The notes beneath the pieces are model-generated. The model was given only the letters and a program-made list of their open reading frames with translations, had not been told where the DNA came from and ran no database searches. Positions 1 through 10,069 of a stretch of 10,149 nucleotides of DNA are shown here, piece by piece (the stretch's first letter is position 1; each line of letters opens with the position of its first letter). Where the stretch lies: positions 1 through 10,149 of the forward strand of contig JAEXFF010000255.1 in assembly GCA_023400335.1 (NCBI GenBank), given 5' to 3'. The translations under genes and the position numbers were made by a program. Source of the DNA: Bacteroidota bacterium (GTDB lineage Bacteria > Bacteroidota > Bacteroidia > Bacteroidales > Marinifilaceae).

Positions 1-988
1 ATTTTTCTCGAAGTATACAAGCTTCTTTGTAATTATTCTTACCTTCTTCTATTTGAAAGAGAAATCGATAACAATTTACTAAATTGATTAAATTATTTTC
101 TTTTTCAGCTGCGTCTTTCATTTTTAAACAATAAAGTTTACAGCTATCAAGAGCGTTTATTTGTTTAAAAATATTTATAATTGTCAAATAGTAAGGAGAT
201 TTTTTAGAAATATCTCTTGTTTCTAAAATAGAAATACATTGTTTACTTAAAATCAATGCACTATCAATGTTATTCATTTTTTGAAATAAAAAACTTTGTG
301 CATTTAAAATACTAGTATATAATTGTGTAATTTGTTGATTTTGTTCATTATCTATGTTAGAAACAATTTTTAATGCTTGAGCCAAAGTTGATTTAGCTTC
401 ATCATATTTTTTTTGATTACTGAAGATTCTTCCTAGTTGTTTTAAAACATATCCCATATAAAGATAATCCTTAGAATTTGAATATATGTCTAAAGATTTT
501 TTATAATAAAATTCTGCTTCCTTTAAATTGAACTGTTGATATTGAATTTGACCTAATTGATAAAATATCATTCCTAAAATATAATAGTTTTCTTTAGAAC
601 TTTTCTCAAAATTACTTTCTGCTAATTTCAATTGTTTATATATATTTTGAGGTTCTTCTTGATATTTTGATAAATAATATTGAGTTCGAGCTAGAGCATA
701 ATAATCCTTTCTGTTCTTATAATATTTTTCAGCAACAAGTAATGTAGAATCATTCTCCAAGAGTTCTAGTTTTTTATTTGCCACTACGGCTTCCAGCAGA
801 TAATAATAAGCTTTTTCGGCTTTACTAAGTTTTTCGACATCTAATGTTGTTAAACTATCCGCTATAGCTTGTGGATTGTCTTCCAATATTTTATCCCATT
901 GGGTTAATTTTACCATATAAGGAGTAAGTTGAGTATCACAGGCGAATACTCCTAAAACTATTAAAATCGAAAAGCAGTATCTATTCAT
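1..988 (-). CDS. TPR-repeat lipoprotein, 3' end cut by window edge
   Basis: An open frame reads from ATG at 988 to the left edge: 329 codons and no stop, so the C-terminus is missing. The N-terminus is a lipoprotein signal with lipobox V14-F15-A16-C17. The rest is helical with tetratricopeptide-like units; the clearest are about residues 135-170 (YYILGMIFYQLGQ..., ...AEFYYKKSLDIY) and 175-210 (...LKQLGRIFSNQKKYDEAKSTLAQAL). TPR units are protein-protein interaction scaffolds. Many Bacteroidales lipoproteins of this layout continue into a membrane segment, coiled coil and a LuxR-type HTH, but that part would lie outside the window, so a regulatory role is only a possibility. The gene has its own promoter at 1008-1039 and is separated from the upstream genes by a terminator. 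It is visibly more AT-rich than its neighbours (16 G+C in bases 1-60 against 28 in 8641-8700). The specific function is not recognised. Confidence 0.88.
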   Translation of the reverse strand, partial: MNRYCFSILIVLGVFACDTQLTPYMVKLTQWDKILEDNPQAIADSLTTLDVEKLSKAEKAYYYLLEAVVANKKLELLENDSTLLVAEKYYKNRKDYYALARTQYYLSKYQEEPQNIYKQLKLAESNFEKSSKENYYILGMIFYQLGQIQYQQFNLKEAEFYYKKSLDIYSNSKDYLYMGYVLKQLGRIFSNQKKYDEAKSTLAQALKIVSNIDNEQNQQITQLYTSILNAQSFLFQKMNNIDSALILSKQCISILETRDISKKSPYYLTIINIFKQINALDSCKLYCLKMKDAAEKENNLINLVNCYRFLFQIEEGKNNYKEACILREK

Positions 989-1007
989 CACACACCGATA
1001 TTTGATA

Positions 1008-1130: not shown

Positions 1131-1158
1131 AATAAGATACGTCTAACTTTATCTTATT
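1131..1158. repeat. Short inverted repeat at the 3' end of the second DUF2807 gene
   Basis: AATAAGATA (1131-1139) is the exact reverse complement of TATCTTATT (1150-1158), with a 10-nt loop. It overlaps the stop codon at 1157-1159 and lies just before the main terminator hairpin. It may help protect the mRNA 3' end, or be chance in AT-rich DNA. Confidence 0.4.
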
Positions 1159-1873
1159 ATTTTCGTGTCGCTTGTCCTCCTGAGGTGAGTTTCTGGCTTT
1201 TTATTGTCGGATTCCCTCTATAAATTAGGTCAGAACCGGTACTCATATAATATTCCAATAATTCAGAAACTTCTATTGTGGCCTTAGCGCCTGTCGTTCC
1301 TTTTATGTTTGCAAATTTTACAGGGAAGTCTGCAGCATTTAAGTTTCCGCTTGTACTCATTTGTACATCAATTTTTTCCGCTTTCCCTTTTAAATAAATA
1401 TCCCCGGAAGTTGTGATGGAAGTTTTTACAGTTACTGCTTCCAAATCTAAGGTCATTACCCCCGACGTTGTGGCTTTAAGGTCTATGTTTGTACATTTTA
1501 ATAGCTGAGTGCTTTTTAACATAGCTCCCGTAGTGACCGATAATTTTTTGACTTGGGGTAAAGTTACCTGTACTTCAAGTGACTGTGCATTTTTGATTTG
1601 AACATTTTCAGGAAAATGTACTCTTAATGTATTCTCCTCTACCTCGGTTTTTAAATAAGGCAGAATGTTATCGTCAGTTTTTACCGTTATGCTGTAGTTT
1701 TCACCAGGAGTTACATAAAGATTTATACCTTGTGAAACTGCAATACCAGAAAAGGCTGTGACAGATCTTTGTTCCGTAATGACGCGTCCCGACGCTTTGA
1801 TCGTTTTTTGTTCTTTCCCATTCCAGGAGGTCAGGGAAATAAATATAAGAGATAATAGAATAAGTAATTTCAT
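1157..1873 (-). CDS. Exported GIN-domain (DUF2807) beta-helix protein, second of a pair
   Basis: This is a 238-residue protein when started at ATG 1871-1873. That start is preferred because it begins a normal signal peptide (MKLLILLSLIFISLTS), has an AGGAAA-like ribosome site upstream and leaves 19 bases after the previous stop. The longer frame from 1918 would overlap the previous gene and put 15 charged residues before the signal. The mature part matches the GIN-domain family PF10988 (FSGIAVSQGINLYVTPG at about 41-57, which contains the GIN triplet) and ends in YRGNP...TSGG. A ladder of TTG/TTSG/STSG motifs recurs about every 20 residues (114, 135, 154, 173, 193, 211), as expected for a right-handed beta-helix. 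The family is secreted or envelope-attached with no firmly known role; the name 'adhesin head' is only putative. It is probably co-transcribed with the paralogue just upstream. Confidence 0.9.
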   Translation of the reverse strand: MKLLILLSLIFISLTSWNGKEQKTIKASGRVITEQRSVTAFSGIAVSQGINLYVTPGENYSITVKTDDNILPYLKTEVEENTLRVHFPENVQIKNAQSLEVQVTLPQVKKLSVTTGAMLKSTQLLKCTNIDLKATTSGVMTLDLEAVTVKTSITTSGDIYLKGKAEKIDVQMSTSGNLNAADFPVKFANIKGTTGAKATIEVSELLEYYMSTGSDLIYRGNPTIKSQKLTSGGQATRK

Positions 1874-1892
1874 TGGTCTTTCCTTGTTTATT

Positions 1893-2615
1893 TTAGTCTT
1901 TACTTCTATGTCTCGCACCTGAATTTGATTCTGCTTTCAATATACGGGGATTTCCGTAATAATCTAATTTTCCCATGCTACTTATCTCGTATTCGAGTTC
2001 ATCGGCTACATATATAGTTGCTTTACCTGCAGAACTTACCTCTATGTCTGCTTTGCTAACAATAAATTTTTCAGCATCCAGATAAGCTGCCGAGTTGACC
2101 TCTGCATCTAATAAATTCCCCTTCCCTGCTAATTGGGCCTTTGCTGCCGAAGTCACTTCCAGATCCAGACGATTTACCTCTAAATTCATATCTAATTGTG
2201 CTGCTGAGGAAATTTCGATTTCCAGATCTGTCGCCTTCCACTCATTGGTCCCATAGATGTGAGAGGCAGAAGAGGCCTCAATTTTTTCTAAGTTAGGGAC
2301 ACTTACATATACGTTCATCGGTTTATTTGTCGATAAGTTTTTGTGTTTTCTGTTTCCATTGAGGGAGATGATCAGACAGTTTTTTACTACTTTTGTTTCA
2401 ATATAAGGAATTATGTTTTCTTCGGCTTCTACCTGAAGCGACTCAGCTTTTCCCTGGGTTAAATAAACGTGAATCGCAGAGGATGTTTTTATTTCCGTAA
2501 AATGTCCAATTTCCCGCTGTTCTTTTACTACATTTTCAGATTTGTTGTTCCGGTAGCCCCAAGAACAAAGTGTCAGGGAAAAACAAGTTAGAAAAATAAG
2601 AGATAATGTTTTCAT
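1893..2615 (-). CDS. Exported GIN-domain (DUF2807) beta-helix protein, first of a pair
   Basis: The protein has 240 residues. It has a hydrophobic signal (residues 1-18, MKTLSLIFLTCFSLTLCS). The LTLC sequence resembles a lipobox poorly, with Leu at -1, so a plain signal peptide is likelier than a lipoprotein. The DUF2807 fold is indicated by FTEIKTSSAIHVYLTQG (39-55), ENIIPYIETKV (66-76) and the terminal YYGNPRILKAESNSGA. A ladder of SSA/TSA/NSA/SSM motifs recurs every 18-21 residues (115, 136, 155, 175, 194, 212), giving one rung per turn of a beta-helix. It is clearly paralogous to the next gene, 19 bases downstream with its preferred start. No convincing Shine-Dalgarno or TAnnTTTG promoter was found upstream, so how the pair is transcribed is open; read-through from the efflux operon is one option. 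Confidence 0.9.
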   Translation of the reverse strand: MKTLSLIFLTCFSLTLCSWGYRNNKSENVVKEQREIGHFTEIKTSSAIHVYLTQGKAESLQVEAEENIIPYIETKVVKNCLIISLNGNRKHKNLSTNKPMNVYVSVPNLEKIEASSASHIYGTNEWKATDLEIEISSAAQLDMNLEVNRLDLEVTSAAKAQLAGKGNLLDAEVNSAAYLDAEKFIVSKADIEVSSAGKATIYVADELEYEISSMGKLDYYGNPRILKAESNSGARHRSKD

Positions 2616-2989: not shown

Positions 2990-4240
2990 CTACTTTAAGA
3001 CCAGGCGTTCGTTGTCTCCGTACATTTCGTAACCGGAAGTGATTACTTTTTCTCCGGGTTCCAATCCTTCTATTACCTGATAGTATTGCGGATTTTGTTT
3101 CCCGATTTTAATTGTCCTCCGGTACGCTTCACTACCATCGGGTGAAAGTACGAAAATCCATTGTCCTCCTGTACTTTGATAGAAAGCTCCTCTTGGAATT
3201 AATACAGATTCGTCGGATTGTCCCAGTTGAAGATTGATATGGTAGGTTTGCCCCGTACGTATATTTTCCGGCATATCGCCTACAAAGCAGAGATCTGTTT
3301 TAAATTGCCCGCCTTTTACATCGGGGTATACTTTCATGACGGTCATATTAAAATTGGTACCCTGACGTTCTAAAGAGGCGTCCAGATCCTTTCTTACACG
3401 GTCGATATAGTGCTCGTCGATCTGAGCTGCTACTTTGTAGTTATCCAAAACATTGATTTTCCCCAGCTCTGTACCACTGTTTACAGATTGGCCGATTTCT
3501 ACAGAAAGTGTACCCAATTGTCCGCTGATAGGAGCCTTTACATTCAGGTTTTCATACCTTTCCCGGACCAATTTGAGGTTTCTCTGCATACTTTTCAAGC
3601 TTTCCGCCATGTTTTCAATCTGGATTTCACGATACATGGAATCCTGTTTCTGACGCTCAATCAACATATCGTTATTTTGTATGGATGTTTCGTAATCCTC
3701 TTTTGCAGTCAGGTAGTCTTCTTTTGCGATCAGATCTTCTTCGTATAATTTTTTATTCTGTTCGTACTTCCGTCTGTTCCGGGTAACATTCAGTTCACTT
3801 TGCAAACGGTCCTGGCGAATGCTGATTTTTTCTTTTTCCATGGAAAGCAAAGTGTTTCTCAATTCGTTTTCCTGATAAGCCAAATCGGCTTCACTTTTCA
3901 GGATCTCCATCGATAAATTGGGATTCTCGAGTTTAACGATAATGTCTCCGGCTTTTACCATAGCTCCTTCTTCGACCACTTTTTCAATAACCCGTCCACC
4001 TTCCATAGCACTCAACTGGATAAAAGTGATCGGCTCTACATTTCCCATAATGCGGATATAATCGTTGAAAGTTCCTTTTTTGATTTCTTCAATGGTAATT
4101 TTATCCTTTTCTACCCTTAAAGTTGAACTGTGGTTTCCAAAAACCAGCCATCCGATAAAGAGCAATACAAAAGCTCCCCCTAAAATATAAGGAATATGTT
4201 TTTTCTTCAATCCTTTTTTCTGTTCGATAATCTTATCCAT
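2990..4240 (-). CDS. HlyD/MacA-type periplasmic membrane-fusion protein of an efflux system
   Basis: The 416-residue protein has a basic cytoplasmic N-tail (KKGLKKKH) and one membrane segment (about 16-35). The first half of the lipoyl/barrel-sandwich domain follows (about 67-107, including VEEGAMVKAGDIIVKLENP), then a long coiled-coil hairpin (about 108-230), the second lipoyl half (232-262, VKAPISGQLGTL...IGQSVNSGTELG), a beta-barrel region, and a C-terminal membrane-proximal domain with IPRGAFY and GLEPGEKVITSG (392-403). Such proteins bridge an inner-membrane transporter to a TolC channel. The gene starts 42 bases after the TolC-like gene and is almost certainly in the same transcript. 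This subtype usually works with a MacB/FtsX ABC permease, but no transporter follows here. It may share a pump encoded elsewhere. The substrate cannot be told from sequence. Confidence 0.93.
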   Translation of the reverse strand: MDKIIEQKKGLKKKHIPYILGGAFVLLFIGWLVFGNHSSTLRVEKDKITIEEIKKGTFNDYIRIMGNVEPITFIQLSAMEGGRVIEKVVEEGAMVKAGDIIVKLENPNLSMEILKSEADLAYQENELRNTLLSMEKEKISIRQDRLQSELNVTRNRRKYEQNKKLYEEDLIAKEDYLTAKEDYETSIQNNDMLIERQKQDSMYREIQIENMAESLKSMQRNLKLVRERYENLNVKAPISGQLGTLSVEIGQSVNSGTELGKINVLDNYKVAAQIDEHYIDRVRKDLDASLERQGTNFNMTVMKVYPDVKGGQFKTDLCFVGDMPENIRTGQTYHINLQLGQSDESVLIPRGAFYQSTGGQWIFVLSPDGSEAYRRTIKIGKQNPQYYQVIEGLEPGEKVITSGYEMYGDNERLVLK

Positions 4241-4282: not shown

Positions 4283-5608
4283 TTAATATTTGATCTTAGC
4301 CTGCAAAGGAGCACCTCTGTAAAAATCTACCATTCTTTTTTTGATTCCATAAGTCAGTTGGGCTTTCAATACATCGAGTTTTGCCTGCCTCAGATTATTG
4401 TCACTGGTGTTTAAGTCGATAATTGTCACTAATCCCTGTTCATATTTTTTTTGGTTTGCTTCATAAGACAATTGACTGAAGTTCTGTTTTTTTATGGCCA
4501 TGTCGTATTCCCGGGAAGCAGCTTTTAGGTCCAATACGGCAAGTTCAATTTCTTTATATACAGACTGTAACATTTCCTGATAAGCAAATTCTGTATCCTG
4601 CATCTGGTATTTGCTGCGGGAAACAGTAGAGTGGCGCGAAAGGCCTCCGAAAATGGGAATGCTTACGCTGAATCCGAAACTTTTTCCGAGATTATTCTTT
4701 ATTTGGGAATGAAAGGAATTGTCCTGGGAATCATAGTAGTAGGTGTTCAGCGTTCCGGAAGCATTAAAACTTGGGAACAACTGACCTTTTGTAATATACC
4801 AGTTCAGCTGGGCAGCCCGGAAGGCATATTCTGCTGCACTTACTTCGGGTAAATCTTCTTTTGCTTTTCCGTATATTTCTGTAATATTCAATTCATGATT
4901 TTCCGGAATACGGCTACTCAGAGAAGAAACTTCTATATCCAGTTCTTCGTCAGGGTTATAATTCATTGTTTGTTTAAGGGTTACTAAAGCAGTTGCTTTT
5001 TTATTCTGATTTGCAATCAGATTATATTCGCTTTCAGCCACCTGGGCTTGTATGTCAAACAGATCACTTTTGGGTTTGATACCCAGCTCATGCTGACGTT
5101 CCATTCTTTTTAGTTGTAAACGGGCGTTTTCCAGCTGCTCCTGAGAAATTTCGATTAATCCTTCTGCATAAGCCAGATCGTAGAAGGCCTGCATGATGTT
5201 TACAGCGATATCGTTGGCTGTCTTCTCGGAGTCTTGCAATCCCTTTAGCTGGGATACTTTCCGGTAACGCAAAGTGTTGATGGCCGTAAAACCGGAAAAA
5301 AGATTGAGATTGGCCCCAACCCGGTAGTTATTGGCAAGTATACGGGAATCAACATAAGTATTGTCGGCCCCAATCGAACGTCCGAAACTATATTCTAAGC
5401 TGGAAGAACCGCTCAGGCTGGGAAGTAGATCCAAACGGGCGTCCCTTAAATTTACATTGTTAACTTTATTATTGAGTAGTTGACGCTCCATTGTCAGACT
5501 TTGCTCCACACCATAATCAATGCATTCCTGTAGTGTCCATTTCTTTTCCTGACCAAAACTTTGAAAGGTAATCAGGACAGCCAGTAAAGTGATACCGATT
5601 TTTACCAT
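4283..5608 (-). CDS. TolC-family outer-membrane efflux channel protein
   Basis: The 441-residue precursor has a signal peptide of about 19 residues (cleavage likely after QSFG). Residues from about 24 (WTLQECIDYGVEQSL) begin the first of two outer-membrane-efflux-protein repeats. The helical segments around LENARLQLKRMERQHELGIKPKSDLF (first half) and NQKKYEQGLVTIIDLNTSDNNLRQAKLDVLKAQLTYG (second half) are typical of the family. Three such subunits form an outer-membrane barrel with a periplasmic alpha-tunnel that exports small molecules. It is the first gene of the operon with the membrane-fusion protein. A near-consensus sigma-54 promoter lies 51-66 bases before its ATG, with two dyad sites further upstream, so expression is probably controlled by the NtrC-family regulator encoded at 8303-9664. 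Confidence 0.94.
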   Translation of the reverse strand: MVKIGITLLAVLITFQSFGQEKKWTLQECIDYGVEQSLTMERQLLNNKVNNVNLRDARLDLLPSLSGSSSLEYSFGRSIGADNTYVDSRILANNYRVGANLNLFSGFTAINTLRYRKVSQLKGLQDSEKTANDIAVNIMQAFYDLAYAEGLIEISQEQLENARLQLKRMERQHELGIKPKSDLFDIQAQVAESEYNLIANQNKKATALVTLKQTMNYNPDEELDIEVSSLSSRIPENHELNITEIYGKAKEDLPEVSAAEYAFRAAQLNWYITKGQLFPSFNASGTLNTYYYDSQDNSFHSQIKNNLGKSFGFSVSIPIFGGLSRHSTVSRSKYQMQDTEFAYQEMLQSVYKEIELAVLDLKAASREYDMAIKKQNFSQLSYEANQKKYEQGLVTIIDLNTSDNNLRQAKLDVLKAQLTYGIKKRMVDFYRGAPLQAKIKY

Positions 5609-5658
5609 TTTATTTAGTTTTTTCGTGATTTCTATTTTTCTGTATTTGTAAGGAATTC

Positions 5659-5674
5659 TGCTAAAAACGTGCCA
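5659..5674 (-). promoter_or_regulatory. Sigma-54 (-24/-12) promoter of the TolC/membrane-fusion operon
   Basis: The minus strand reads TGGCACG-TTTT-TAGCA. The consensus is TGGCACG-N4-TTGC(A/T): the -24 element is perfect, the spacing is exact, the invariant GG and GC are both present, and only one base differs (A for the second T of the -12 element). Transcription would start near 5648, leaving a leader of about 40 bases to the ATG at 5608. Sigma-54 promoters need an activator of the kind encoded at 8303-9664. Confidence 0.85.
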
Positions 5675-5727
5675 GAATTGTAAAATATTAATTATTAGTA
5701 TTTTGTTACTTATTAATTTTATTATGG

Positions 5728-5765
5728 TGTCAAAAAAATAGACAACAGTGTGAAATTATTTGACA
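5728..5765. promoter_or_regulatory. Tandem activator-binding dyads (UAS) upstream of the sigma-54 promoter
   Basis: Site 1 is TGTC-N9-GACA (5728-5744) and site 2 is TGTG-N9-GACA (5749-5765). Their centres are 21 bp apart, two turns of the helix, so both would face the same side. They lie about 80-117 bases upstream of the predicted sigma-54 start, the normal place for enhancer sites of NtrC-family activators. Site 1, with one flanking G, is identical over 18 bases to the site upstream of the regulator gene. Binding by that regulator is inferred, not shown. Confidence 0.75.
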
Positions 5766-5999: not shown

Positions 6000-6614
6000 A
6001 TGAATACAACAGTTATAGGAGTTGCCGGAGGTACCGGTTCCGGTAAAAGTACGTTGGTACGGAAATTGAGGGAAGCTTTTGCGGAAGAGGAAGTGATCAC
6101 CTTGAGTCACGATTATTATTATAAGGCAAATAATGATCTCAGTATGGAGGAAAGAAGGAAATTGAACTATGACCATCCTCAATCCTTTGATACGGAAATG
6201 ATGATCGGACATGTGCGGACGCTGAAGGACGGCGTTCCTATCCAGCGGCCTGTATATTCTTTTGTCGAGCACAATCGGTTGAGGGAAACGGTAAAAATGA
6301 TCCCTGCCAAGGTATTGATTGTAGAAGGAATTCTGATTTTTGAAAATAAAGCCTTACGGGATCTGATGGATATTAAAGTATATGTAGATACAGATGCGGA
6401 TATCCGTTTAGCTCGTCGGATTTTACGGGATGTACAGGAAAGGGGCAGAAGTATGACCTCTGTAATCAATCAGTACATTTCCACGGTAAAACCAATGCAT
6501 GAAGAATTTGTAGAACCCTCTAAAAAATATGCTGATGTAATCATACCGGAAGGTGGATTCAATTCTGTTGCCCTATCTCTTTTAATCGAAAATATCAAAT
6601 CTGTCATTCGGTGA
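6000..6614 (+). CDS. udk: Uridine kinase (uridine/cytidine kinase)
   Basis: The 204-residue protein matches the uridine kinase family along its whole length. It phosphorylates uridine and cytidine to UMP and CMP with ATP or GTP in the cytoplasm, the pyrimidine salvage step. Visible motifs: P-loop GGTGSGKST (10-18), the DYYYK segment (38-42), NYDHPQSFD (56-64) for nucleoside binding, VEGIL (108-112), an arginine-rich lid (139-150, RRILRDVQERGR) and a C-terminal KYADVIIPEGG (177-186). The ATG at 6000 fits the family N-terminus; there is no strong Shine-Dalgarno. The stop TGA is bases 2-4 of a 27-nt repeat hairpin, yet the length is normal. It is divergent from the efflux operon and convergent with the kinase gene, so it is transcribed alone. 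There is no evident functional link to the neighbours. Confidence 0.96.
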   Translation: MNTTVIGVAGGTGSGKSTLVRKLREAFAEEEVITLSHDYYYKANNDLSMEERRKLNYDHPQSFDTEMMIGHVRTLKDGVPIQRPVYSFVEHNRLRETVKMIPAKVLIVEGILIFENKALRDLMDIKVYVDTDADIRLARRILRDVQERGRSMTSVINQYISTVKPMHEEFVEPSKKYADVIIPEGGFNSVALSLLIENIKSVIR

Positions 6615-6637
6615 CAAGGGGACGGTTCTTTTGTCAC
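6611..6637 (+). repeat. REP-like hairpin repeat, copy 1 (overlaps udk stop; likely terminator)
   Basis: This 27-base palindrome has arms GTGACAAGGGGA and TTCTTTTGTCAC around a CGG triloop. All 12 pairs form on this strand, counting G-T wobbles. It differs from copy 2 at one base (A to G at position 8), which keeps the pair as a wobble. It contains the udk stop codon and is followed by a T-rich stretch (ATTTTCTTTTTC from about 6641), so it probably also ends the udk transcript. Confidence 0.8.
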
Positions 6638-6917: not shown

Positions 6918-8246
6918 TTATAATTCAATTGTAAATTGTGTTTCTTTATTGGGGACAGAATGAACGCGGATGGAACCTCCGTGTGCTCGCATAATTTGAC
7001 GGGCTATACTCAAACCGATTCCGGAACCTAATTCTTTTGTTGTAAAGAAAGGTACAAAAATCTGTTTTATCAATTCTTCCGGTATACCGGGTCCATTGTC
7101 TTTAATAGTGAAAATTGTCCGGTCGTTTTCTGTCTTCCAGGCTTTGATTACAATGGCAGCGTTTTGACGTCCGGATAAAGCCTGAATCGCATTTTTTACA
7201 ATATTGATGAGTACCTGTCCTAATAAATTAGAGTCGGCATATAATTTTAAATCTTCCGGAACGCCGGACATATCTATTTTTACGGAGTTAAAATTGTCTT
7301 CAGCACTACAAAGAATGACGATGCGTTGAATGAATTCACTTACGTTGAACAATTCCCGTGCGGGGGTTGGAATACGAGTGAACTTACGGTAGGATTCAAC
7401 AAATGACACCAGGCCTTTACTGGTTTCACTGATGACATGAAGTCCACTGATAGCATTCGAACGGATGTCGTTGTCGGGGACATTTTTATCTTCGTATAGG
7501 GTTAATAATGTGTCACTAAGAGAAGTAATGGGAGCAATAGAATTCATAATCTCGTGCGATAATACACGTATAAGCTTGATCCAGGACTCAATTTCCTTCT
7601 CATCCATTTCATTATTGATATCGTGGATGACGATCAGGCGTACGAATTCGTTTTCCATTGTCATTCCTGAAGCTTTTATACTCAATTGTACGCTTCCTCT
7701 TTCCATTGTCAGGGAAGAGGTCTTATTATCTCCGGGCCGGATCGTTTCAAATAAACCCGTCAATGCCGGATCTACTCTGTCCAGTTGCCGGATATGAGTA
7801 AAGACATCCAGTCCCAGAAGTTTTAAAGCAGCTGTATTTGCTTGTAATACAAAACCTTTTGAATTTAATATCACAATACCGGAATGAATACTACCTAAAA
7901 TCAGTTCATAGAATTTTTCTTTTTGTTGAGCCTCGATACGGATTTTCTGAAGAACATTTTTCATTTTATTCAGGATGTAACTCAGAAACATTTCCGAACT
8001 GGTTCCTTTTTTCTCGATAAAATTAATGGAATAATCGTCATTTTCGATGGCTTCGAAAAAATAAGCCAGCTTACGGTTTACCGAATTATAGAGAGTAAGG
8101 GTTTTGGATATATAGATAATAGCTCCTAGAGCACATATAATTCCCCAGCCTTTATAAGAAAAATAGAAAAGAGCGGCTGAAGCGACAGAACAGCCGATAA
8201 TGATCAGGATAAAAAATAAAAGGTGTAGTGAAATCCTCCGGAACAT
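6918..8246 (-). CDS. NtrY-like membrane sensor histidine kinase
   Basis: The 442-residue protein has two adjacent N-terminal membrane segments (about 7-28 and 33-50) with almost no periplasmic loop. A linker, perhaps HAMP-like (about 51-105), and a PAS-like domain (about 110-210, SGIVILNSKGFVLQANTAALKLLG) follow. The dimerisation domain carries the phospho-acceptor His231 in VLSHEIMNSIAPITSL; this short H-box form is typical of NtrY-type kinases. The ATPase domain has the N-box (N348/N352 in NIVKNAIQAL), G1 DNGPGIP (383-389), F-box (FVPFFTT, 397-403) and G2 GSGIGL (407-412). All catalytic motifs are intact. The lack of a periplasmic sensor suggests it detects a membrane or cytoplasmic signal. 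It is 56 bases downstream of the sigma-54 response regulator gene, the likely partner. A GGAGG follows rather than precedes the chosen ATG, so the exact start is slightly uncertain. Confidence 0.94.
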   Translation of the reverse strand: MFRRISLHLLFFILIIIGCSVASAALFYFSYKGWGIICALGAIIYISKTLTLYNSVNRKLAYFFEAIENDDYSINFIEKKGTSSEMFLSYILNKMKNVLQKIRIEAQQKEKFYELILGSIHSGIVILNSKGFVLQANTAALKLLGLDVFTHIRQLDRVDPALTGLFETIRPGDNKTSSLTMERGSVQLSIKASGMTMENEFVRLIVIHDINNEMDEKEIESWIKLIRVLSHEIMNSIAPITSLSDTLLTLYEDKNVPDNDIRSNAISGLHVISETSKGLVSFVESYRKFTRIPTPARELFNVSEFIQRIVILCSAEDNFNSVKIDMSGVPEDLKLYADSNLLGQVLINIVKNAIQALSGRQNAAIVIKAWKTENDRTIFTIKDNGPGIPEELIKQIFVPFFTTKELGSGIGLSIARQIMRAHGGSIRVHSVPNKETQFTIEL

Positions 8247-8302: not shown

Positions 8303-9664
8303 TTATAAACTGTATTTTTTCATTTTATTATAAAGGGTTTGGCGGGTAATTCCCAGCTGGGTGGCTACGGCCGATAAATTTCCGTTACTGCGGTCCAAAG
8401 CGTGTTGGATCATTTGTTTTTCCATATCTTCCAGCGTTTCATTTTTATCGATAAAAGTAGTTGTTACCGTTTTAAAGAAAAAATCTGAGGGCTTGATTAT
8501 ATTTCCTTCGCACATGATCACGGCTTTTTCGATAGCATGTTGTAATTCCCGTATATTCCCGGGCCATTTATATTCCTGTAATTTTTCCTGGGTGGTTGAT
8601 AACATATTGCAGTTTTTCCCATATTTAGAAGAATATTTTTTCAGGAAATATTCGGCTAAAGGTACGATGTCCTCTTTCCTTTCCCGGAGCGGAGGAATTT
8701 CAATGTGAATAGTATTAATCCGGTAGAGTAAATCTTCCCGGAAATGATTTTGTTGTACCATTTCCTGAATATTCCGGTTCGTGGCACATATCAGGCGGAT
8801 ATCGGTATTTATGGGTTTATTGGAACCGACCCGGGTAATTTTACGGTTTTGAAGGGCTGTCAGTAATTTGGCCTGCAGAGCATAGGATAAATTTCCAATT
8901 TCATCCAAAAAAAGGGTGCCTTTATTAGCTGCTTCGAATTTTCCTGCGCGGTCTTCCCGGGCATCGGTAAAGGCTCCTTTCACATGCCCGAACAATTCAC
9001 TTTCAAAGAGTGTTTCCGTTACGGCTCCCATATCGACGGAAATCATTACTTCGTTGGAACGGTTGGATAAACGGTGAATTTCCCGGGCAATCATTTCTTT
9101 CCCGGTGCCATTTTCGCCGGTAAGCAAAATATTGGCGTCCGTTTTGGCTACTTTGCATACCAGGTTATATACCTGCATGATTTCCGGGGAACTTCCCCAC
9201 AACATGGAAGGTTCGCTGTTCAACTGGTTTTTCAGTACATTCTTTTCTTCTTTCAGTTGCTTGACCTCATTTTGGGATTCTCTCAACCGGTAGGCCGAGA
9301 GTAAAGTTGCTACTAGTTTTGCGTTGTCCCAGGGCTTTACCACAAAATCCGTTGCCCCTTCTTTTACTGCTTTGACGGCCAGTTCGATATCTGCGTAGGC
9401 AGTAAATAAAACGACAGGGAGTTCCGGAATTTGTTCCTTGATTTTCGAAAGCCAGTACAATCCTTCGTTACCGGTATTGATGGCAGCTGAAAAATTCATG
9501 TCCAGTAAAACGACGTCTACCCGTTCTGCCGATAATACTGCAGGAATACGTTCGGGAGTCGATAAAGTGATTACCTTTTCAAAATAACTTCCCAATAATA
9601 ATCCTACTGCTGTCAATACGGATTTATTATCATCTACTACTAATATTATTCCTTTTTTTGCCAT
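8303..9664 (-). CDS. NtrC-family sigma-54-dependent response regulator
   Basis: The 453-residue protein has three parts. The receiver (about 5-125) has acidic pocket D11/D12, phospho-acceptor D55, T88 and K110. The AAA+ domain (about 155-390) has Walker A GENGTGKE (183-190), the sigma-54 contact loop GAFTDA (230-235), Walker B LFLDEI (251-256), candidate arginine fingers in FREDLLYR (308-315) and sensor II GNIREL (369-374). A Fis-type HTH ends the protein (about 424-450, NLSAVATQLGITRQTLYNKMKK). On phosphorylation such proteins form rings that remodel sigma-54 holoenzyme at promoters. The contact loop has Asp where the classic motif GAFTGA has Gly. It is the first gene of an operon with the kinase. 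A TGTC-N9-GACA dyad identical to one before the efflux operon sits 58-74 bases upstream of the ATG, so the efflux operon and its own gene are the likely targets. Confidence 0.96.
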   Translation of the reverse strand: MAKKGIILVVDDNKSVLTAVGLLLGSYFEKVITLSTPERIPAVLSAERVDVVLLDMNFSAAINTGNEGLYWLSKIKEQIPELPVVLFTAYADIELAVKAVKEGATDFVVKPWDNAKLVATLLSAYRLRESQNEVKQLKEEKNVLKNQLNSEPSMLWGSSPEIMQVYNLVCKVAKTDANILLTGENGTGKEMIAREIHRLSNRSNEVMISVDMGAVTETLFESELFGHVKGAFTDAREDRAGKFEAANKGTLFLDEIGNLSYALQAKLLTALQNRKITRVGSNKPINTDIRLICATNRNIQEMVQQNHFREDLLYRINTIHIEIPPLRERKEDIVPLAEYFLKKYSSKYGKNCNMLSTTQEKLQEYKWPGNIRELQHAIEKAVIMCEGNIIKPSDFFFKTVTTTFIDKNETLEDMEKQMIQHALDRSNGNLSAVATQLGITRQTLYNKMKKYSL

Positions 9665-9685: not shown

Positions 9686-9693
9686 CAAAACTA
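9686..9693 (-). promoter_or_regulatory. Possible -7 box of the regulator-kinase operon
   Basis: The minus strand reads TAGTTTTG, matching TAnnTTTG, 22 bases before the ATG at 9664. No TTTG is found 19-21 bases upstream, so the -33 element is missing. An activator bound at 9722-9738, about 51 bases before the start site, could compensate. No sigma-54 -24/-12 pair is present here. Confidence 0.4.
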
Positions 9694-9721: not shown

Positions 9722-9738
9722 TGTCAAAAAAATAGACA
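9722..9738. promoter_or_regulatory. Regulator-binding dyad TGTC-N9-GACA upstream of its own gene
   Basis: With one flanking G this site (9721-9738) is base-for-base the same as 5727-5744 (GTGTCAAAAAAATAGACA). Only one copy is seen here, with no second dyad 21 bp away on either side. It suggests autoregulation of the regulator-kinase operon. Confidence 0.7.
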
Positions 9739-9762: not shown

Positions 9763-9789
9763 GTGACAAAGGGACGGTTCTTTTGTCAC
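9763..9789 (+). repeat. REP-like hairpin repeat, copy 2 (hairpin plus T-run)
   Basis: This 27-base palindrome has arms GTGACAAAGGGA and TTCTTTTGTCAC and a CGG triloop: 12 pairs with two G-T wobbles on the plus strand. It is followed by CC and six T (9792-9797), so it has the form of a plus-strand intrinsic terminator, although no plus-strand gene precedes it. It could block antisense transcription into the region or simply be a repeat insertion. Confidence 0.8.
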
Positions 9790-9985: not shown

Positions 9986-10048
9986 ATGATTAAAATAAAA
10001 ATATTTTCTTATATTAAGATGGGCCATTATTATATATTTGGGCGGTGA
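9986..10048 (+). CDS. Candidate 20-residue small protein or leader peptide
   Basis: ATG at 9986 is preceded by AAGGAGGAG with a 2-base gap, by far the strongest Shine-Dalgarno in the window, in a phylum that rarely uses them. The frame gives 20 residues beginning MIKIKIFSYIKMGHYY, basic and hydrophobic with no known motif, and stops at TGA 10046-10048, which is bases 2-4 of repeat copy 3. It lies between two inverted copies of the repeat and about 50 bases before the next gene. It could be a leader peptide, a small membrane-active peptide, the shortened start of a lost gene, or chance. Real translation is uncertain. Confidence 0.4.
   Translation: MIKIKIFSYIKMGHYYIFGR
10033..10040 (+). promoter_or_regulatory. 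Possible -7 box for the gene starting at 10097
   Basis: TATATTTG matches TAnnTTTG and would start transcription near 10047, at the start of repeat copy 3. No TTTG lies 19-21 bases upstream, so support is weak. Confidence 0.3.
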
Positions 10049-10069
10049 CAAAAGAACCGTCCCTTTGTC
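10045..10069 (-). repeat. REP-like hairpin repeat, copy 3 (inverted, incomplete end)
   Basis: On the minus strand this reads GACAAAGGGACGG then TTCTTTTGTCAC: the same element as copies 1 and 2, with the two outermost 5' bases changed (GT to AA), so the last two pairs are lost. With copy 2 it forms an inverted pair enclosing about 255 bases that include the small ORF. Confidence 0.8.

Follow-up and report, generated by a model that had tools for sequence, protein, structure and literature searches.

A predicted sigma-54 regulon of ABC exporter genes in Odoribacter and its relatives, marked by paired dyads upstream of -24/-12 promoters

Introduction

Control of genes from paired enhancer dyads upstream of the promoter is well known from two-component activators such as NtrC of E. 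coli at glnA and ZraSR. A second kind of two-component system also bears on what follows: intramembrane-sensing kinases of the BceS-like kind have two membrane helices joined by a very short loop, with no periplasmic domain, and they receive their signal via a partner ABC transporter. Here, we describe a window, meaning the whole stretch of 10,149 nucleotides that was analyzed, in which a promoter and a pair of dyads precede genes for part of an exporter. The window resembles the NtrC and ZraSR systems in its receiver-AAA-Fis HTH protein, its 17-bp upstream dyads and its -24/-12 promoter. It differs from them in the dyad itself, which is TGTC...GACA with an A/T core, in the 21-22 bp register, in the GAFTDA loop of the regulator, and in having exporter genes as targets.

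Sigma-54 control of ABC permeases in the Bacteroidia is already a published prediction. A study based on position weight matrices (PMC12316311; PLoS One 2025) placed sigma-54 promoters at COG0577 FtsX-type permeases in this class, and the accessible part of the paper presents this as the first evidence of sigma-54 control for the COG0577 family. The permease class, the promoter type and the bacterial class are the same as in the regulon described below. A major difference is that the accessible part names no operator, cognate activator, or TolC or adaptor partner; moreover, the activator list given there kept only proteins with an exact GAFTGA, so that a GAFTDA protein would drop from it. The change from GAFTGA to GAFTDA is itself described for the NorR mutation G266D, which confers signal-independent activity and still allows open-complex formation, according to the available part of the report (PMC2941729), and another report (PMC4641369), in its available part, gives GAFTDA among natural variants of the motif in Desulfovibrio. 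A survey of the open-access literature, a scope that makes absence weak evidence, found no work naming the dyad operator or its regulator, and the accessible parts of PMC3162934, PMC10197588 and PMC10197871 were not relevant to either. We argue that the promoter in the window is very probably one predicted target of a multi-operon exporter regulon under the regulator-kinase pair encoded in the same window.

The window and its promoter

The source of the window is, on sequence grounds, Odoribacter-like and a close relative of Odoribacter laneus: the TolC protein shares 94% identity with its counterpart in O. laneus YIT 12061, and the regulator shares 97% with the O. laneus regulator. The features of the window, including the eight predicted genes scanned with Pfam, are collected in Table 1.

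Table 1. Predicted genes and control elements of the window
Feature	Position	Strand	Basis or remark
TPR protein, runs off window	2-991	minus	Pfam
Second DUF2807 protein	1157..1918	minus	Pfam
DUF2807 (Toastrack-type) protein, possibly same transcript as adaptor	1893..2615	minus	Pfam; 374-base gap behind adaptor gene
HlyD/MacA-type periplasmic adaptor	2990..4240	minus	Pfam; NCBIfam best match DarC (below cut-off); passes TIGR01730
TolC-family outer-membrane channel, first gene behind promoter	4283..5608	minus	OEP domain E 2e-46
Sigma-54-type -24/-12 promoter TGGCACG-TTTT-TAGCA, predicted start ~5648	5659..5674	minus	One mismatch to consensus, best in window
A/T-rich stretch, matches third fixed-phase element between dyad and -24	5682..5699	minus	T nine bases upstream of TGG
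Dyad A, proximal predicted enhancer site TGTCAAAAAAATAGACA	5728..5744	.	53 bp from -24; identical in O. laneus
Dyad B, distal predicted enhancer site TGTGAAATTATTTGACA, one arm mismatch	5749..5765	.	21 bp register with dyad A; identical in O. laneus
Uridine-kinase-family protein	6000-6614	plus	Pfam
Histidine kinase, two adjacent membrane segments, PAS and HATPase	6918..8246	minus	Pfam, hydropathy
NtrC-type response regulator, predicted activator: receiver, AAA+ with GAFTDA, Fis-type HTH with RQTLYNK	8303..9664	minus	Pfam, alignment
TAGTTTTG, fits TAnnTTTG	9686..9693	minus	Downstream of dyad C
Dyad C, exact copy of dyad A, before regulator gene	9722..9738	.	Copy present in O. laneus too

The promoter reads TGGCACGTTTTTAGCA on the minus strand, which is one mismatch from TGGCACG-N4-TTGCW, and it is the sole match in the window with fewer than three mismatches; GG at -24, GC at -12 and the right spacing are all present (the O. 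laneus tolC promoter has GT at -12 in place of the GC). A preliminary description of this DNA had placed the element 51-66 bases ahead of the TolC-like gene and had predicted a start near 5648, with two 17-bp dyads 21 bp apart some 80-117 bases upstream of that start. All of this was borne out, with the tolC ATG at 5608 and the start as a prediction that follows when the C of the -12 element is taken as position -12; the dyad centres then lie about 88 and 109 bases upstream of it. Chance was gauged with 2000 dinucleotide-preserving shuffles of the window. These contained 55 promoters with at most one mismatch in total, or about 0.03 per window, but not one dyad pair at 21 bp with at most one mismatch and not one copy of the dyad 17-mer in either orientation.

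Two features had escaped the preliminary description, the lack of an inner-membrane pump in the window (see below) and dyad C. The latter lies 58-74 bases ahead of the regulator ATG, with no -24/-12 element behind it. Instead, TAG(T/C)TTTG is found downstream of the dyad in all four Odoribacter-type regulator promoters compared. The consensus of the housekeeping -7 element in Bacteroidota is TAnnTTTG, and we take the copy in the window to be a match to it. With a dyad and a housekeeping-type -7 element both upstream of its gene, the regulator may well control itself.

Some further features of the window may be mentioned briefly. The DUF2807 pair behind the adaptor gene (1157-2615) is also present in O. 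laneus and in the third Odoribacter genome studied (G003), and there is no DUF2807 match behind the adaptor gene in O. lunatus; the family lies in the Toastrack domain of envelope-stress systems, as stated in the accessible part of PMC11237479. An inverted repeat, GTGACAARGGGACGGTTCTTTTGTCAC, occurs in three copies (6611-6637, 9763-9789 and 10045-10069), one of them reversed and slightly shorter. It is missing from the syntenic O. laneus locus and from the 14 other Odoribacter loci scanned, and its identity could be that of a mobile REP-type element; terminator-like scores are also obtained for the first copy. An Rfam search of the window returned no family at gathering score, and a plasmid search with the promoter region gave no match.

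A composite signal in related genomes

The regulon was read in O. laneus, O. lunatus and G003. It had been proposed that TGTC-N9-GACA would be usable for finding the regulon, but in whole genomes the bare motif is hardly more frequent than its reversed control (55 versus 53 in O. laneus, 37 versus 33 in O. lunatus), and it was discarded as a probe. A regulon search needs three things together: the A/T core, the pairing at 21-22 bp, and the 53-56 bp distance to the -24 element. When the A/T core is included and one mismatch is allowed, the dyad TGTCWAWWWWWTWGACA has 20 sites in O. laneus, 8 in O. lunatus and 15 in G003, against 1, 2 and 2 for the reversed control. The layout that recurs at these sites is a dyad, 4-5 bases, a second dyad, 53-56 bases, TGGYAY-N5-TTG, and then a gene; tandem dyad matches number 22 versus 3 in the control. 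In O. laneus, 15 of the 20 sites fall within dyads before tolC, the regulator, permeases or an ATPase. The remaining five (L130, L131, L133, L134 and L135), together with two O. lunatus sites in L116, were read as chance, because all seven lack a suitably spaced -24/-12 element and six are located within predicted genes. Several of the tandem matches in O. lunatus and G003 are likewise chance-like, with G/C-rich cores, and two A/T-core sites (G002 C20:28280 and G003 C11:326514) were left out of the flank reading.

How fixed is the spacing? A scan in which the gap between dyad and -24 was left free over 46-64 bp found 46 rows. Two of these were duplicates and one, from G142 with a gap of 51, was poor and was dropped; the others are 43 distinct sites, 42 in 11 genomes plus the window's own. 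The gap is 53 bp at 10 of them, 54 at 8, 55 at 21 and 56 at 4, a concentration that is informative even though the sample is not blind, since the loci from outside the genus (and one further G003 locus) were chosen by composite match, with the gap free in the same range. When offsets of 18-25 were tried, the second dyad fitted best at 21 bp in 33 of the 43 sites, at 22 bp in 9 and at 23 bp in 1, and it has at most two mismatches at 40 of them.

The same alignment contains a third element between dyad and promoter, marked by a T nine bases before the TGG at 42 of the 43 sites and a T at -24 at 37 of them (the window has C there). By eye, this element is IHF-like (TTGAT) in several Odoribacter sites and reads TTGTA in genome G110. 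Most Odoribacter permease promoters (L112-L117, L122, L127 and L132) have T, A or G where the -12 GC has its C, while the GC is intact before tolC in the window, O. lunatus and G003. The loss of this C at many permease promoters and at O. laneus tolC weighs against the model given below.

Which protein reads the dyads?

One alternative is that the promoters depend on sigma-54 but that an enhancer-binding protein other than the neighboring regulator reads the dyads. Each Odoribacter genome encodes several such proteins (6, 3 and 7 strong PF00158 proteins in O. laneus, O. lunatus and G003, the window-type regulator included), and one paralogue (L224) ends, like the window regulator, in TLYNKMK. 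We nevertheless regard a different reader as unlikely, considering that the closest homologues of the regulator track the sites over 395 genomes of the class, and the evidence supports the dyads as the probable operator of the neighboring NtrC-type regulator. This link draws on co-distribution over genomes, on position near the regulator gene, and on enrichment upstream of the closer homologues.

The composite signal has 44 matches in 25 of the 395 genomes, versus 21 control matches in 18. Four genomes (G001, G110, G321 and G342) have at least three matches (3-8), a level that one control genome (G121) also reached with three; the single-hit genomes are mostly background, and G265 looks real. 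The regulator was then sought in 395 genomes of the class, to judge by their handles the same set, with the best four first-look candidates per genome scored. A match at E <= 1e-165 was found in eight genomes, and the four with a homologue at 64-97% identity are exactly the four with at least three composite matches. The other four have homologues at 58-62%; G142 among them has two composite matches, and G035, G213 and G395 have none. At the other extreme, G403, whose best homologue is at about 41%, has only one composite match with a different core, which recurs with small changes in G404, G405 and G407. A scan of the family gave composite matches at 23 places in 11 of 56 genomes, versus 4 in the control.

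The sites also lie close to the regulator gene. A composite site stands directly between the regulator and a divergent TolC or adaptor gene in G321, G342 and G265. In G110 and G437 its distance from the regulator is about 2-4 kb, and in G443 it adjoins a fragment of the regulator. The two transcription directions diverge about the dyads, with the kinase and NtrC-type regulator genes on one side and TolC-adaptor-permease (G321 and G342) or adaptor-ATPase-permease (G265) on the other. Moreover, the 1.4 kb upstream contains a dyad pair for 24 of 35 regulator homologues at 56.5% identity or more but for only 1 of 15 below that value, a cut-off chosen after earlier rows were known; shuffled upstreams of the 35 closer homologues had a pair in 0 of 700. 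This count covers 54 loci minus four, two in which the alignment starts beyond residue 20 (L210 and L217) and two with fewer than 300 bases upstream (L216 and L273).

The link to the regulator is strong, but the layout is not universal, as several genomes with a close homologue have no composite site. The strict A/T-core composite was found in none of G405 and G407 (both 69%), G411 (70%), G414 and G449 (both 64%), G450 (63%) and G441 (62%). Under looser criteria, dyad pairs were seen in G411, G449 and G450, and G441 showed one dyad accompanied by a promoter-like element; even so, no dyad was seen within 1.4 kb in G405, G407 and G414. The recognition helix (RQTLYNK versus R-x-x-LYR) fits the proposed assignment and is not decisive, because RKTLYNK occurs in one remote paralogue; L214 and L254, which are closer homologues and have RPTLY-, lack a dyad pair. 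The sigma factor itself is represented by one strong Sigma54_DBD (rpoN) match in each of six related genomes, with one extra match below cut-off in G110.

Exporter genes behind the sites

What do the sites head? An exporter-gene homologue lies behind 39 of the 43: a permease at 25, TolC at 8, an ATPase at 5 and the adaptor at 1. The four sites with no matchable exporter gene behind them are divided between G110 and G342. The two in G110 precede a serine-hydrolase-like protein (L228) and a 134-residue ORF (L230), so the regulon may reach beyond pumps in that genome; of the two in G342, one is at a contig end and the other has no gene behind it. Dyads and promoter are well formed at both L228 and L230. 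In G443 (L238), a dyad and promoter precede a permease piece of about 113 residues, and the same site adjoins a regulator fragment of about 140-150 residues.

The permeases are about 780 residues long, and all eight O. laneus permeases scanned have MacB_PCD and FtsX domains. The two short proteins scanned (one from O. laneus, one from G003) both have ABC_tran and are ABC ATPases. A profile built from nine O. laneus permeases found 15 full-length permeases in O. laneus, 6 in O. lunatus and 18 in G003, and 36 of these 39 (14, 5 and 17, respectively) belong, to judge by their location and strand, to runs headed by the signal. The census may be biased, since the permeases in the profile come nearly all from signal-headed runs and distant unlinked permeases may be missed. 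The sole permease outside such runs is, in each genome, a plus-strand, more divergent copy. Each run would presumably form one transcript. In one O. lunatus run the first gene encodes an ATPase and has a site of its own (C13:18807), the proximal dyad of one G003 run (L123) has two mismatches, and two longer permease runs hold a weaker internal site as well. A permease copy broken by stops lies between two intact operator-headed permease genes at G001:C1:2810056-2812358 (L114).

The partner proteins are fewer. The ATPases found under the signal number one in O. laneus, two in O. lunatus and two in G003. Each of the three genomes has a single close homologue of the window adaptor (96, 88 and 89% identity, respectively), the next matches being weak (E 1.6e-7 or worse, at most 31% identity).

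These counts bear directly on the scope of the regulator. The preliminary description had proposed a complete and dedicated sigma-54 efflux circuit with all of its parts encoded nearby. Its core stands, in that co-distribution, position and upstream enrichment tie the promoter and its dyad pair to the nearby NtrC-type regulator, but neither "dedicated" nor "complete" can be kept. If the regulator and kinase controlled only the neighboring TolC-adaptor operon, one would understand why regulator, kinase and target adjoin in the window and in several relatives; yet the same dyad pair and promoter head eight permease runs elsewhere in the O. laneus genome and nine in that of G003, and dispersed sites occur in G110 and G321 too, so that a circuit confined to one operon is very improbable. 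As to completeness, the eight Pfam-scanned genes of the window include no ABC ATPase, ABC permease or RND pump, and the inner-membrane part of the machine is therefore missing from it.

The pump and its regulators

The window contributes the TolC channel and the adaptor of a predicted tripartite exporter; in Odoribacter the ATPase and permease lie not beside the adaptor operon but at other loci under the same signal. In other genomes the parts are closer together, with a permease directly behind the adaptor in G321 and G342 and both ATPase and permease there in G265.

The likely machine is an exporter of the MacAB-TolC type, considering the family matches of adaptor, ATPase and permease and the duplicated halves of the last. 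Among NCBIfam models, the adaptor is closest to DarC (183 of 450 bits) and the ATPase to DarD (262 of 375), and the permease matches the ADOP duplicated permease TIGR03434 (230 of 622) better than DarB, to which its likeness is weak (68 of 700); all four scores are below cut-off. The adaptor passes the general adaptor model TIGR01730 (143.8 bits, cut-off 94.9) and matches RND and MacA adaptors in the PDB, where the best match of the permease profile is the putative ABC permease protein 3is6, followed by MacB chains. Duplicated MacB_PCD/FtsX halves and about eight hydrophobic segments suggest that the permease is a fused MacB-like dimer. A major difference from MacAB-TolC and from the darobactin exporter DarBCD is that the Odoribacter permeases are many and dispersed, with a single adaptor.

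The regulator consists of a receiver (PF00072), a sigma-54 interaction AAA+ domain (PF00158) and a Fis-type HTH (PF02954), and matches the NtrC-family structure 4l4u over nearly its full length (E 1e-90). In place of the exact GAFTGA loop it has GAFTDA at residue 230, a departure that weighs against its predicted role; the same variant is present in 23 of the 24 regulator homologues of about 47% identity or more (L195-L224; one was missed by the regular expression). Relatives that lack the dyads have GAFTDA too, so the variant is not tied to the dyad operator. The residue change in this sigma-54 contact loop is the same as in NorR G266D, which, in the available part of that report (PMC2941729), is a mutation made in the laboratory and releases NorR from control by its GAF domain; the window regulator and its relatives, in contrast, have GAFTDA naturally.

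The hydrophobic segments of the kinase (residues 1-31 and 34-53) have few residues between them, and a similar N-terminal pair is present in six of seven other kinase homologues, the O. lunatus protein having one merged stretch (1-53). Since the two segments nearly adjoin, the signal is likely to be perceived in or at the membrane. Two membrane helices, a very short loop and the lack of a periplasmic domain are as in BceS-like kinases, from which the PAS domain sets this kinase apart.

A model for the regulon

The explanation that we favor is that the kinase would activate the NtrC-type regulator, presumably by phosphorylation, and that the regulator would bind both dyads and drive sigma-54 RNA polymerase at the -24/-12 promoter of the TolC-adaptor operon. 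In related genomes the same regulator would drive nearly all of the duplicated ABC permeases, along with the ATPases. The products would assemble into a pump of the MacAB-TolC or DarBCD type, with a TolC channel, one adaptor, a separate ATPase and a fused MacB-like permease. We infer binding, sigma-54 dependence, operon membership and pump assembly from comparative evidence of the kinds given above, and the same holds for phosphorylation and for any exported substrate. That the dyads are instead repressor or anti-activator sites, with the genes driven mainly by the housekeeping sigma factor and the -24/-12 likeness incidental, is the least credible reading of all: the window promoter, which taken alone has a chance expectation of about 0.03 per window, the sigma-70-like matches in the region, which are at chance level, and the regulator-gene dyad with no -24/-12 element behind it would each agree with it, but a fixed distance from dyad to TGGYAY-N5-TTG at 43 sites is hard to obtain unless the two function jointly.

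Returning to activation by the regulator, a more specific arrangement can be put forward only tentatively. In Odoribacter, one TolC-adaptor duct and one or two ATPases might serve 6 to 18 interchangeable fused MacB-like permeases, all switched on together by the GAFTDA-type NtrC regulator, with the membrane-embedded kinase sensing envelope attack, perhaps via the permeases. The predicted regulon is new, and the sharing of one duct by many permeases would be a new variant if it were shown.

Little was found in the open-access literature on the role of sigma-54 in Bacteroidota, and the present analysis offers an operator code (paired TGTC-N9-GACA with an A/T core, 53-56 bp from the -24 element), together with a candidate activator, a kinase and a list of targets for immediate testing. 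It would be worthwhile to compare the natural GAFTDA loop with the bypass mutation of NorR. More broadly, the regulon would account for how duplicated ABC permeases could act jointly although their genes are scattered over Odoribacter chromosomes, and the presence of many permeases for one adaptor leads to the testable idea of one export duct for many substrates. If this combinatorial reading is true, a whole panel of export specificities would be raised at once against membrane-active peptides.
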